Assembly (NCBI RefSeq): GCF_014695385.1 | Contig: NZ_JACJOD010000030.1 | Location: 248,001 to 312,000 of the forward strand | Direction: 5' to 3' | Source of the DNA: Trichocoleus sp. FACHB-46 | GTDB lineage: Bacteria; Cyanobacteriota; Cyanobacteriia; FACHB-46 | DNA length: 64,000 bases | Shown here: in pieces, positions 49,132 through 52,659 of the stretch | Numbering within the stretch: position 1 is the stretch's first letter | Layout of the letters: each line of letters opens with the position of its first letter | Notes under the pieces: model-generated | Told to the model about the DNA's origin: nothing | The model's input: only the letters and a program-made list of their open reading frames with translations | The model's database searches: none | Translations under genes and position numbers: made by a program

Positions 49132-50193
49132 CTAGTTTTTTGTCTCAGGCATCATGCATTTGTCGCTATCGCAACCTGCTGGTCCTTCAACGGTGGCTTC
49201 TCCAGAGTCATAGCGGCTTAAGGCCGTATAGAAGTTGTCGGTTCTACGGCGTGCCTGCACCCCTTGCTGCAACTGTTCGTAAGTTTCTTGATCAATTTTC
49301 TCAAAAGGCAAACGGGGGAAAGGCGCATCAAAGCGAGCCAGGAGGGCCGCACTAATGTAGCCTTCTTGGTTGGCGATCGCCTGATAAATCCGTTGGGCTA
49401 GTGGCTCAACTTCATCTTCTCGCAGCTCCACCGTGGCACTGGTGTTGTGGGCGGTGTAGTGCTTCTGCACCTGCATATAGAAGTCGAATTGTGCTTCCGC
49501 AGAGAACTTCTCGATCGCGATCTGATCAGCCCCTGGCAAGTTGGCCCAAGGCACTTCGACTGGAATTTCTACCAGCCACTCTGTTACCCGTGGGTCAAAA
49601 GGATCATTCAGCAGGTTGCCATTTTCGTCTTTATCAGACTGAGACGGCACCACGCTGTAACCGTATTCAATACAAGCCAGTGCCACAGGATCATTCTTGC
49701 GGAACGTAATCCGGCGAATGTAGCGTTGAGCTTTAGGTGGGTGCCAACCGGGAGATGCGCCTGTCAGTAATGATTTAGTACCGGAAGGCTGCACAGTGGT
49801 ACAACGGTTAGGACGCTTGATGTCGTGGCGATCGCAGTATTCCCACACTACCCGATGCACAACTTCTTTCCAGCGTGACAGATAGGCTTGCTCCTTCTGC
49901 TTAAACTCTAAGCCAGCCACTGTATCGGGTCTGCCTGCTTCCCACCAGTGCAACCAGTCCACACCAAAAGCTCTGACAAAAAAGTCAAACAGCCCAGTGA
50001 AAGAAACCCCAACAATCGGGTCAACTTCCCGTGACCATTGATAGCGCTCTTCCACAAATTGATGATTCAACAGCGCTGCCACAGAGAGCGCTCCTGCTTT
50101 AAACGCTTCTTCTTGTTCTTGTGGGTTATGAGGGTCTAGCTGATTAAGATGTACCTCCGCTAAATTGCAGTGAAAATCTGAGCCGATAATTTC
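49132..50193 (-). CDS. nrdJ: class II ribonucleotide reductase, C-terminal exon
   Basis: 353 codons that follow the intron: EIIGSDFHCNLAEVHLNQ onward. GVSFTGLFDFFV, GTKSLLTGASPGWHPP, SQSDKDENG and the C-terminal redox pair CDSDKC, which passes electrons to the active-site disulfide, are all present. The exon starts with Glu, the catalytic acid of N-P-C-G-E; it has no start codon of its own, and a TTG-initiated reading at 50196 would use the last intron bases. Joined to the 75-nt exon at 51369-51443 by removal of the intron it gives a 378-residue polypeptide. Uses adenosylcobalamin to start radical reduction of nucleotides. Confidence 0.92.
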   Translation of the reverse strand, partial: EIIGSDFHCNLAEVHLNQLDPHNPQEQEEAFKAGALSVAALLNHQFVEERYQWSREVDPIVGVSFTGLFDFFVRAFGVDWLHWWEAGRPDTVAGLEFKQKEQAYLSRWKEVVHRVVWEYCDRHDIKRPNRCTTVQPSGTKSLLTGASPGWHPPKAQRYIRRITFRKNDPVALACIEYGYSVVPSQSDKDENGNLLNDPFDPRVTEWLVEIPVEVPWANLPGADQIAIEKFSAEAQFDFYMQVQKHYTAHNTSATVELREDEVEPLAQRIYQAIANQEGYISAALLARFDAPFPRLPFEKIDQETYEQLQQGVQARRRTDNFYTALSRYDSGEATVEGPAGCDSDKCMMPETKN

Positions 50194-50205
50194 CAATCTT
50201 TTTTG

Positions 50206-51198
50206 TTATCCTAGAGGCTCTTTATCCCCTAGTTCTAACGCTTCATCATTCGCGTTAGCTCCGAGTACCTTTTCTACCAAAGAACGGAAGTAGTAGAGAA
50301 TTTCCTTGCGATTTGTCATCCGTCCAAGCAGCACCTTGCTTAACGTGCGCTCATCTTGAATTCCAGAGATTTGATAGGCTTGCTGATAAAAACCAGATAA
50401 AACAGGCTTAATTTTGTTGAGCTTAGCTCTCAAAATTGCCTCAGCATTGTCTCTAGCAAATTCAAGAGCTGCCTGCTGAATTTTCTCTTGCTCACCGTGA
50501 GCAAATTTGGAAAACTCACCATTGGCAGCACAGCGATGAGAGCAATATAGACGTTTCTCAGCTTTACCTGGCGTAGTTTCAAAAGTACTACCACAAAACC
50601 TACAGGTAAGACTAACTTTGACGAATCGCTCGTTCAGTATTCTTAGCCGTTGGATATTTTCAGTACTTTTGAGACGAGCCAGATTGCTAGCCAGCCATTT
50701 CTCCTTATACTCAGGGTCACACATTCTTGCTTTTGCTTTTGCGGCAATTTTGGCTCTGGTTGCATCTGAGAATTTAACACCATACCGAGGGTTATTCTCG
50801 CCTGATGTGTCCATTCCAAAGGCTCCAGCCAAGTCTTTCCACTCTTGCTTAAGCTGTTCAAATACAAATGGAGTTGCTTTGATAAGCAGCCTCAAGTCCC
50901 GCTCTTGAAAAATTTTAACTTTGACATTTTGATCAACCTCAAATTGCTGAATTCTTGGTAGATCAAGTGCATAGTTAAATCCACCTTTAATCTCGACATA
51001 CTCTTGGGAATTTATCAGGTAGAAGTCTGGCTTGTAACTTCCGCCATTGGAAAGCTGAAACGTTTTCAACTCATAGCTCCAGGCAAGATTTAGATAATCG
51101 AGATATCTAGCATAGATGTATTCCAGAGTGGACTTAAGGTAGTAACCCTTGTAGTGACCGCAATAAGTTCTTCCGTTCATTGATAGCCCGACACTCAT
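50206..51198 (-). CDS. intron-encoded homing endonuclease-like protein (PD-(D/E)XK-type with NUMOD3 and zinc-finger-like parts)
   Basis: About 330 residues from ATG 51198; in-frame sequence extends upstream to a TTG at 51234, but that lies in the presumed intron core. N-terminal domain: STLEYIYARYLD, WSYELKTF, SYKPDFYL and YVEIKGG give the E...E...PD-x10-E-x-K pattern of PD-(D/E)XK nucleases. Then a NUMOD3-like segment (GENNPRYGVKFSDATRAKI), a basic stretch, and a Cys4-like finger (CRFCG ... YCSHRC). The helical C-terminus is rich in charged residues. The combination is typical of enzymes that cut an intronless allele and cause intron homing. Activity and target are inferred; the likely target is intronless nrdJ around the N-P-C-G-E codons. 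Confidence 0.82.
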   Translation of the reverse strand: MSVGLSMNGRTYCGHYKGYYLKSTLEYIYARYLDYLNLAWSYELKTFQLSNGGSYKPDFYLINSQEYVEIKGGFNYALDLPRIQQFEVDQNVKVKIFQERDLRLLIKATPFVFEQLKQEWKDLAGAFGMDTSGENNPRYGVKFSDATRAKIAAKAKARMCDPEYKEKWLASNLARLKSTENIQRLRILNERFVKVSLTCRFCGSTFETTPGKAEKRLYCSHRCAANGEFSKFAHGEQEKIQQAALEFARDNAEAILRAKLNKIKPVLSGFYQQAYQISGIQDERTLSKVLLGRMTNRKEILYYFRSLVEKVLGANANDEALELGDKEPLG

Positions 51199-51227
51199 GG
51201 AAAGATTATATTCTAAAAGAAAATTAT

Positions 51228-51241
51228 AGTACAAAAGTACT
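51228..51241 (-). promoter_or_regulatory. palindrome fitting the cyanobacterial LexA box, abutting a TATAAT box
   Basis: AGTACTTTTGTACT matches the published cyanobacterial LexA consensus RGTACNNNDGTWCB at every position. TATAAT follows at once (51228-51223), and a second TATAAT is at 51210-51205, 7 nt before the endonuclease ATG. The site suggests an intron-internal promoter that LexA might control. It also overlaps the presumed P7 strand, so the symmetry could serve RNA folding instead. Confidence 0.45.
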
Positions 51242-51368
51242 TAATCTTTTAGGTTCACTTTCTACTCTGTACGGTGCTAAAAGCGTTTTACGGCTTCTAG
51301 TTACCACGGGATTAGCATCTCAGCCTTCCCCGTTTTTGCCGGGTTTTTAACGTGAGGCAAAATTATCT

Positions 51369-51443
51369 ACCACACGGATTGAGTCCGTAGCAGGACATTC
51401 TGTGTTCTAGCTCAAGTTCGATCGCATCCATATTGATTGACAT
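51369..51443 (-). CDS. nrdJ: class II ribonucleotide reductase, short exon carrying the catalytic Cys
   Basis: 25 codons from ATG 51443: MSINMDAIELELEHRM, then SCYGLNPCG up to the 5' splice site. Asn and Cys of NPCG are the active-site residues equivalent to those that carry the thiyl radical in RNR. The ATG has AGGAG at 51455-51451 with 7-nt spacing. This reading frame is +1 to the upstream nrdJ frame, whose TAG stop (51456-51454) overlaps the AGGAG. Either this is a genuine start of a C-terminal subunit, or the remains of an uninterrupted gene after a one-base insertion. Confidence 0.75.
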
Positions 51444-51453
51444 CTGGTATCTC

Positions 51454-52659
51454 CTAATTGAAACCGTTACTTGTTGTGTTTTTGCTCTCAATTAAGAGCG
51501 TTTTCAAGTAAGACTTGGCTGCTTCTCTAGATTCCCCATAGAGTTTCAAAAACTTCTCTCGCTTCTCAGGGGTGTCAAGTAAGTCACAGTTAGCCCGAGC
51601 GATCGCTTCTGGTGCGTATTGAATCGCGCCTTCCCCAGAGTAAAACTGCTTGCGAACTGCTTCGATACACTCCTGCTCAGAGGGTTGGCGGTGGAACACC
51701 CTCGTATGGTTTGCCATCCGTAGAGCATCACGTTCGGGGTCAATGCGCCAGTTACCTTCTGCGTCTTGCTGCCATAGGTTATCCTTGGCTGTTGCAAATT
51801 CTGCATCGTCGCTATCCCCTTGACGCATACCTGCGCTGCGCCGAATGTTTCCGGCGACAATCGTCACAGCGGCAGCATCGATCAACAGGCAGCATTCCAC
51901 AGAGTTTAACTGGCGACCCACGGCGCGGTTCAAGATTGTGGCGCAGCGATCGTAGAGTTCGGGGAGCTTGATCGGGTTTGCAACACCACCAAAACCTTTT
52001 AAGGTTTCGCCCGCCGGACGGACATCGCTTAGATTTACGACTACTTGGACTTCACCAGAGAAGCGATCGCTGCTAGAAAGTTCAAGCAAAGACTGATAGG
52101 ACTTCACCCAACCTTGGCGACTGTCCCCCACGTTGATTTGAACTTGGTTGCCTTCAATCTTGACTTCCGTAGTGGCGCGGCGCTGCTCGGCGGGAGTGGT
52201 GCCGATTTCGCCTGCAACGGTGACATTTAATCGGTTGCGGATGGCAGGTAAGCGGTTGATATACTTGGGTTCTAAAATGGCACCTGTGCCGCAGCCTTGC
52301 ATGGCAAGATCCATCATCAAGCCGAAAGCCCGCCAGTCAATCACGTTGGTGCTGGTGCAGTTGTAAGCACCGGAAAAGTTTTCTTGTTTTTCGATCCAGT
52401 CGGTGCCCCCAATCCACAGCCAACGACCGGATGGCAAGCTTTTGATCTGGTATTGCATCCGTCGCAGCAAATCGACTTCGGCGTCGGTGAGCTTACCCAG
52501 TTTGGCGATGCCTTCAATTGTACGATCGCAGACTTGTTCCCAGGTTTCACGCCGACCGTCGGTTCTACGGCTGTAAGTCCTAAAGAACACTGCGTTAGCC
52601 GTGGGTGCTGTTTCAGGGAATTGGCTAGTTGGGCGTACCCGCTCTAGATCTTGAACCAT
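51454..52659 (-). CDS. nrdJ: class II ribonucleotide reductase, N-terminal part
   Basis: 401 residues, cytoplasmic. It supplies deoxynucleotides together with the C-terminal part. SGAYNCTSTNVIDW carries the N-terminal Cys of the redox-active pair; MMDLAMQGCGTGAI, GNIRRSAGMRQGDSDD and FYSGEGAIQYAPEA are class II blocks. The homologous sequence runs to SYLKTLLIESK; the last eight residues (NTTSNGFN) look out of frame before TAG. Skipping one A in the AAAAA run at 51479-51483 opens a stop-free frame into the N-P-C-G exon. No cobalamin riboswitch or complete NrdR box pair is evident upstream. Split class II enzymes are known (NrdJa/NrdJb), so loss of function cannot be assumed. Confidence 0.92.
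   Translation of the reverse strand: MVQDLERVRPTSQFPETAPTANAVFFRTYSRRTDGRRETWEQVCDRTIEGIAKLGKLTDAEVDLLRRMQYQIKSLPSGRWLWIGGTDWIEKQENFSGAYNCTSTNVIDWRAFGLMMDLAMQGCGTGAILEPKYINRLPAIRNRLNVTVAGEIGTTPAEQRRATTEVKIEGNQVQINVGDSRQGWVKSYQSLLELSSSDRFSGEVQVVVNLSDVRPAGETLKGFGGVANPIKLPELYDRCATILNRAVGRQLNSVECCLLIDAAAVTIVAGNIRRSAGMRQGDSDDAEFATAKDNLWQQDAEGNWRIDPERDALRMANHTRVFHRQPSEQECIEAVRKQFYSGEGAIQYAPEAIARANCDLLDTPEKREKFLKLYGESREAAKSYLKTLLIESKNTTSNGFN

Follow-up and report, generated by a model that had tools for sequence, protein, structure and literature searches.

In the 64,000-nt stretch of Trichocoleus sp. FACHB-46 DNA analysed here (the window), the nrdJ gene lies on the minus strand and is divided into two open reading frames, the second of which is interrupted by an intron (Table 1). 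The initial annotation of this DNA had placed a break in the nrdJ frame 85 nt upstream of the intron, with a TAG overlapping a Shine-Dalgarno AGGAG, an ATG 7 nt further on and the motif NPCG in the frame opened by it. All of these features were confirmed by the sequence, at the coordinates given and on the minus strand. The distance from the TAG to the restart ATG is 10 nt, and the head of ORF2, MSINMDAIELELEHRMSCYGLNPCG, runs up to 51369, where the exon ends. With the predicted splicing, the frame would continue into EIIGSDFHC... up to position 49132 and give a second chain of 378 aa. A skip of one base in the A5 run at 51483-51479 had also been said to open a single frame across the junction, and this is correct as a statement about the sequence.

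Table 1. Coordinates of the split nrdJ locus and its intron in the window.
Feature	Position	Strand	Remarks
ORF1, N-terminal chain of split NrdJ	51454..52659	-	401 aa; TAG at 51456-51454
Shine-Dalgarno AGGAG	51451..51455	-	overlaps TAG of ORF1; seen in the sequence
ORF2 exon 1	51369..51443	-	restart ATG (51443-51441) and 25 codons, MSINMDAIELELEHRMSCYGLNPCG, with NPCG
Intron, 1175 nt, probably group I	50194..51368	-	boundaries restore ...NPCG-EIIGSDFHC
Intron-encoded homing endonuclease candidate	50206..51234	-	PD-(D/E)XK motif (PD..EIK), NUMOD3-like stretch
ORF2 exon 2, 353 aa	49132..50193	-	GSDFHC, CDSDKC, C-terminal end of NrdJ
Split-type junction block, ~184 nt	51381..51564	-	stands where unsplit nrdJ has a 117-nt block

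Both parts of the gene were recognised by the NCBIfam profile TIGR02505 (RTPR): ORF1 scored 349 bits over profile positions 19-347 and exon 2 of ORF2 405 bits over positions 379-723, each above the curated cut-off of 340 bits. The Cys of NPCGEI aligned to C408 of the Lactobacillus leichmannii RTPR (1L1L), which we take to be the thiyl-radical cysteine, and the Cys residues of NCTS in ORF1 and of DFHC and CDSDKC in ORF2 are found in invariant columns. AdoCbl-dependent NTP reduction would be the function expected from membership in the RTPR group. The window genome contains one NrdJ locus only. Searches of 14 split genomes with PF02867 (class I/II) and PF13597 (class III) gave no match, and the positive controls gave a signal; as PF02867 is blind to the RTPR type, other RTPR copies were tested by NrdJ searches instead. 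We calculated a dN/dS of 0.024 for ORF1 (codons 1-350, compared to the intact gene of G001, a genome of the same genus) and of 0.021 and 0.008 for exon 2 in comparison to G001 and to a second genome of this genus, G002, respectively. Over the 25 codons at the head of ORF2, the window and G002 differ by four synonymous and zero nonsynonymous changes. These values indicate strong purifying selection on both chains. Because there is a single NrdJ locus, no other RNR was found and dN/dS is in the range of 0.02, the split enzyme is very likely essential and active.

The break is not confined to the window. Our sample consisted of 390 genomes of the class, 323 of which matched the NrdJ query, and at least 19 of these 323 NrdJ-bearing cyanobacterial genomes have a split nrdJ. 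The adjacent layout of ORF1, restart ATG and intron was present in 13 genomes among the matches listed, i.e. the window and at least 12 others (G002, G053, G169, G326, G313, G249, G245, G184, G218, G136, G120 and G292). These include Microcoleus sp. FACHB-1515 (G053), Leptolyngbyaceae RU_5_1 (G313), Phormidesmis priestleyi ULC027bin1 (G292) and four Pseudanabaena-type genomes. The split layout consists of a stop, a ribosome-binding site and a new ATG 21-25 codons ahead of NPCG; in 11 of the 12 split loci examined, this ATG precedes the Asn codon of NPC by 63-66 nt, and in the remaining one by 75 nt. A Shine-Dalgarno match of at least 4 nt was detected in 9 of the 12 loci compared to 20% for any ATG of the same DNA, and a match of at least 5 nt in 6 of the 12 compared to 5%; it is weak in three Pseudanabaena-type loci. 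Since the same layout is found in at least 12 other genomes, the order of stop, restart and NPCG is not a product of chance. A comparison with close relatives had been proposed as a check, and it recovered the same break, for example in G002, which has the window-type junction with an earlier stop and without an A5 run at this position.

We consider it highly probable that the product of this locus is a naturally split class II RNR of the monomeric type (RTPR/NrdJm), consisting of two chains of 401 and 378 aa. The class II RTPR/NrdJm type is defined as a single polypeptide, which the split loci do not provide, having either the conserved stop and restart or, in the family f17 described below, dispersed halves. 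In the AlphaFold model of an unsplit relative, which is only moderate overall (mean pLDDT 69.8) with a pLDDT of 82-91 around the break, the break falls into a loop (387-391) between the helices 379-386 and 392-399 and precedes the finger loop carrying Cys407; the top Foldseek match of this model was 1L1L (TM 0.59-0.62). Chain 2 starts 23 residues ahead of the thiyl-radical Cys in NPCGE. In the RNR barrel, the finger loop is defined as lying between strands E and F (PMC9669993); by this definition, chain 1 would contribute strands A-E, and the finger loop would belong to chain 2 along with strands F-J. From the sequence we infer termination-reinitiation, splicing, assembly and activity as follows: chain 1 would end in a surface loop ahead of the active-site finger loop, ribosomes would stop at the TAG and re-initiate 10 nt on at the ATG served by the overlapping AGGAG, chain 2 with the thiyl-radical Cys would be complete only once the intron is spliced out, and the two chains would then join non-covalently to form the catalytic barrel.

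The intron has a U at the 5' splice site and a G as its last base, and a guide-sequence pairing can be proposed. It scored 16.2 bits (E 0.28) against the Rfam group I model RF00028 and was not recognised at the gathering threshold of 50. Its relatives have a covarying 3' stem and include short versions of 246-365 nt, and the window intron is likely of group I. SAM_alpha matches at the splice site were below threshold and were disregarded. The endonuclease candidate matches PHROG endonuclease and Holliday-resolvase families, shows weak similarity to endonuclease I and has no Pfam or NCBIfam match. Its last codons (window 50200-50270; also in L031, L033, L158 and L162) overlap with a 7-bp stem in the RNA, which shows covariation among species (CTAACGC/GCGTTAG, CTAATGC/GCATTAG, CTACTAC/GTAGTAG), so the C-terminal end of the endonuclease doubles as intron structure.

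Other elements were seen at the same position of the gene. The unsplit nrdJ of G157 (L152 2170-2427) has another intron at the NPCG site, with 90.5 bits to Rfam group I, and inteins are located at NPC in G084 and G095. On the viral contig IMGVR_UViG_3300028895_000061 (L193, ~9112), the same intron start occurs inside TNPCG of a seemingly different, distantly related RNR, which suggests that the NPCG site of non-orthologous RNRs may also be open to the intron. In the viral contigs L250, L253 and L257, nrdJ is broken elsewhere (...LSRYQLNP, then LILAA and a stop), and the NPC codons look as if they were interrupted by some other element.

All 13 adjacent splits listed contain the intron. This would fit a stop and restart whose main role is to clear the 5' splice site of ribosomes so that the intron can fold, the split enzyme being a by-product; according to PMC3984707, group I splicing is reported to suffer when the 5' splice site is translated, and stop codons in the reading frame of the 5' exon are regarded as adaptive. 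However, of the 78 nrdJ loci with the intron, in which some genomes occur twice, 60 are unsplit in spite of the same intron, the f17 splits have no intron, and re-initiation would return ribosomes to the splice site, which makes splice-site protection as the main role unlikely. A strict link between split and intron is ruled out by the same unsplit intron loci and the intronless f17 splits. With so many unsplit carriers, the intron has no need of the split and can also move on its own.

The two-chain reading receives support from family f17. Here, six genomes have the NrdJ halves as separate, unlinked genes, which are separated by ~720 kb of one contig in G036 and by ~85 kb in G018. The C-terminal half has its own ATG (MTQAPER...LEAELDHRMSRYGLNPCG), and in G049, where chain 2 starts with MTQAPERFLNLTDRTLEAELDHRMSRYGLNPCGE, neither an intron nor an intein is present at the junction. 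In all genomes examined (L150, L157, L034, L035), ORF1 is followed by an unrelated small membrane-protein-like gene (MLTxLLVTWVVNxLSLW...), and the two are possibly co-transcribed. This placement of the two halves directly implies two separate translation products in f17. The two-part RNR, one of the alternatives in the initial annotation, is thus supported both by recurrence in other genomes and by unlinked halves. It could still be argued that the halves are rejoined after transcription, either by split-intein trans-splicing or by cryptic splicing of the RNA with loss of the stretch that holds stop and restart. Inteins and introns are frequent in nrdJ, including the inteins at NPC in G084 and G095, and metagenomes are known to contain split NrdJ inteins. 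Nevertheless, the ORF1 tails, read by eye, close with a short stretch resembling a helix and show no intein N-part, ORF2 opens with the ATG and a helix before NPCG without an intein C-part, and this by-eye reading of tails and heads found only NrdJ-like sequence. Together with the dispersed pair of G049, this renders a rejoining of the halves very unlikely.

Separate chains are also in line with the frame relation of ORF1 and ORF2, which differs between the adjacent splits. The offset is +1 in the window, G002, G169 and G313, 0 in G053 and G245, and +2 in G326, G184 and G249, and the gap between stop and ATG varies from -20 to +47 nt. With such offsets and gaps, no slippery site can join the frames. 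We therefore regard programmed +1 frameshifting at the A5 run, which would yield one continuous NrdJ and for which the single frame with one A fewer in 51483-51479 and the +1 offset of four genomes would speak, as extremely improbable: G002 has no A5 run, the other offsets do not fit, the f17 halves are encoded at distant loci, and the position of Shine-Dalgarno sequence and ATG is conserved. As a mechanism common to the splits, it is refuted by the varying frame relation. A programmed frameshift gene was rejected as a class for the locus, since there is neither a conserved slippery site nor a fixed frame relation, and readthrough was ruled out by the variable frame relation and the dispersed halves. 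Taken together, sequence comparison shows that the split is conserved, that the genomes tested gave no sign of another RNR, that both chains are under purifying selection and that they exist as independent genes in another family.

An intact gene was found in G001, which has an intronless nrdJ of 761 aa with a 117-nt junction. Protein identity between the window and G001 is 94% for the N-terminal 376 aa and 97% for the C-terminal 353 aa. On the DNA level, identity is ~0.9 along the gene, drops to ~0.4 in the ~200 nt that precede the intron site and rises again directly behind it; because of this drop and recovery, the difference is a replaced junction block and no indel. A sequencing error or a recent pseudogenising frameshift in the window genome, as might be suspected from the homopolymer at the site and the intact gene in the same genus, can practically be dismissed, given that the whole ~184-nt junction is another allele than that of G001 and differs by more than one indel, that the break is common to G002 and 11 other genomes, with independent assemblies from other genera among them, and that dN/dS is ~0.02 with no other RNR found. 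Hence, the frameshift alternative of the initial annotation, whether real, programmed or erroneous, did not hold: relatives have the break without the A5 run, in three frame relations and with halves at distant loci. On these comparisons, both a frameshift and an error are ruled out as the cause of the break.

The split junction is an allele distinct from the unsplit one. Between split and unsplit genes within five genera, identity is 0.32-0.42 in the junction block and 0.76-0.93 in the flanks, and between split genes of different genera, the junction block reaches 0.49-0.72. The flanks track the genus, whereas the ~180-nt junction does not. ORF1 tails of adjacent and dispersed splits have one sequence type (DLLDTPEKKxxFLxLYxESREQAKxYLRxLLIE), which is far from the unsplit type; the dispersed tails have BLOSUM scores of 89-109 against adjacent-split tails compared to 41-45 against unsplit tails. 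That all split tails share one type points to a single origin of the junction. In a tree of the N-terminal 275 aa, the split state changes 11 times, with 8 changes forced by well supported branches, and parsimony allows either direction, i.e. a spreading split or an intact form that replaced it repeatedly.

In 9 of 12 cases, a split gene has its five nearest intron cores exclusively in other split genes, mostly of other families; the core of the window intron has an identity of 0.88-0.90 to its five nearest cores and on average 0.75 to introns of unsplit genes. Judging by these cores, the adjoining intron tends to be inherited with the split junction. This co-transfer is imperfect, as G002 has another intron lineage than the window despite belonging to the same genus. 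Homing commonly co-converts flanking markers (PMC3984707). Based on this co-conversion, the contrast between block and flanks, the scattered split state and the kindred intron cores, we propose that intron homing carried the split junction along. The data suggest spreading by intron co-conversion, and the split junction is probably an allele that moved in this way between cyanobacterial nrdJ genes. We see about even chances for the further idea that homing intron and fission junction form one travelling cassette, in which homing into an intact nrdJ creates a two-chain enzyme and fission spreads as an infectious allele, the halves having become unlinked in one lineage. A phage source of the stop-restart junction was rejected, as none of 64 IMG/VR viral relatives carries one. 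Several cyanophage-like NrdJs (e.g. L196, L201, L225-L231) have a continuous junction that is closer to the split-type tail (scores of 74-80 compared to 38-52 for the unsplit type), and a phage origin of this tail is possible.

The system described here appears to be a working, essential radical enzyme, the sole RNR found, with a barrel divided between two chains just ahead of the radical Cys. It lends itself to studying how half-barrels come together round a radical site, how the synthesis of the chains is kept in balance and whether gene fission can be spread by a mobile intron, and annotation pipelines may label a split nrdJ of this kind a frameshifted pseudogene. No description of the cyanobacterial NrdJ split was found in the literature searched, whose coverage mostly excluded subscription journals. 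Group I introns with homing endonuclease are known from cyanobacterial RNR genes (Meng 2007, cited in PMC3984707); this system likewise has the intron in a cyanobacterial RNR gene, and the passages of PMC3984707 consulted make no mention of a split junction. The unsplit cyanobacterial RTPR/NrdJm of G001 matches the window enzyme to the extent given above, but is a single intronless chain of 761 aa with its junction of 117 nt.

Among known split RNRs, NrdJa/NrdJb of Pseudomonas aeruginosa and its relatives (734 and 229 aa) results from a C-terminal split, and both parts are needed in vivo; NrdJa holds the entire catalytic machinery and NrdJb is responsible for disulfide exchange (PMC4520616). 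According to this 2015 study, the proteobacterial split is the only one found in non-viral organisms (PMC4520616). The cyanobacterial enzyme would resemble it as a class II, AdoCbl-dependent type made of two polypeptides from adjacent genes, but its chain 2 (378 aa) has the catalytic Cys and chain 1 the N-terminal half. Proteobacterial NrdJab is defined by a split C-terminal to the barrel and a small thiol-exchange NrdJb, neither of which is found in the cyanobacterial split. The nrdJ-a and nrdJ-b genes of Thermus phage YS40 are also two consecutive ORFs, with a 12-nt gap (PMC3653736). In YS40, nrdJ-a carries NPCGE near residue 440 of its 797, nrdJ-b is a 199-aa C-terminal piece, and the split follows the catalytic Cys, while the cyanobacterial split precedes it. 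The likeness to split class II enzymes drawn in the initial annotation consequently applies to the two-part nature and not to the breakpoint, as the known splits are C-terminal to the catalytic Cys. A breakpoint before the catalytic Cys in a class II enzyme is matched by none of NrdJa/NrdJb, YS40 and Aeh1. NrdA of Aeromonas phage Aeh1, which is split by a mobile element in a functionally critical region and is fully active (PMC2988022), is closest in the expected mode of working. It is a class I phage enzyme with halves parted by the free-standing endonuclease gene mobE, whereas the cyanobacterial enzyme is of class II and cellular, with few bases between the halves and the endonuclease inside the neighbouring intron.
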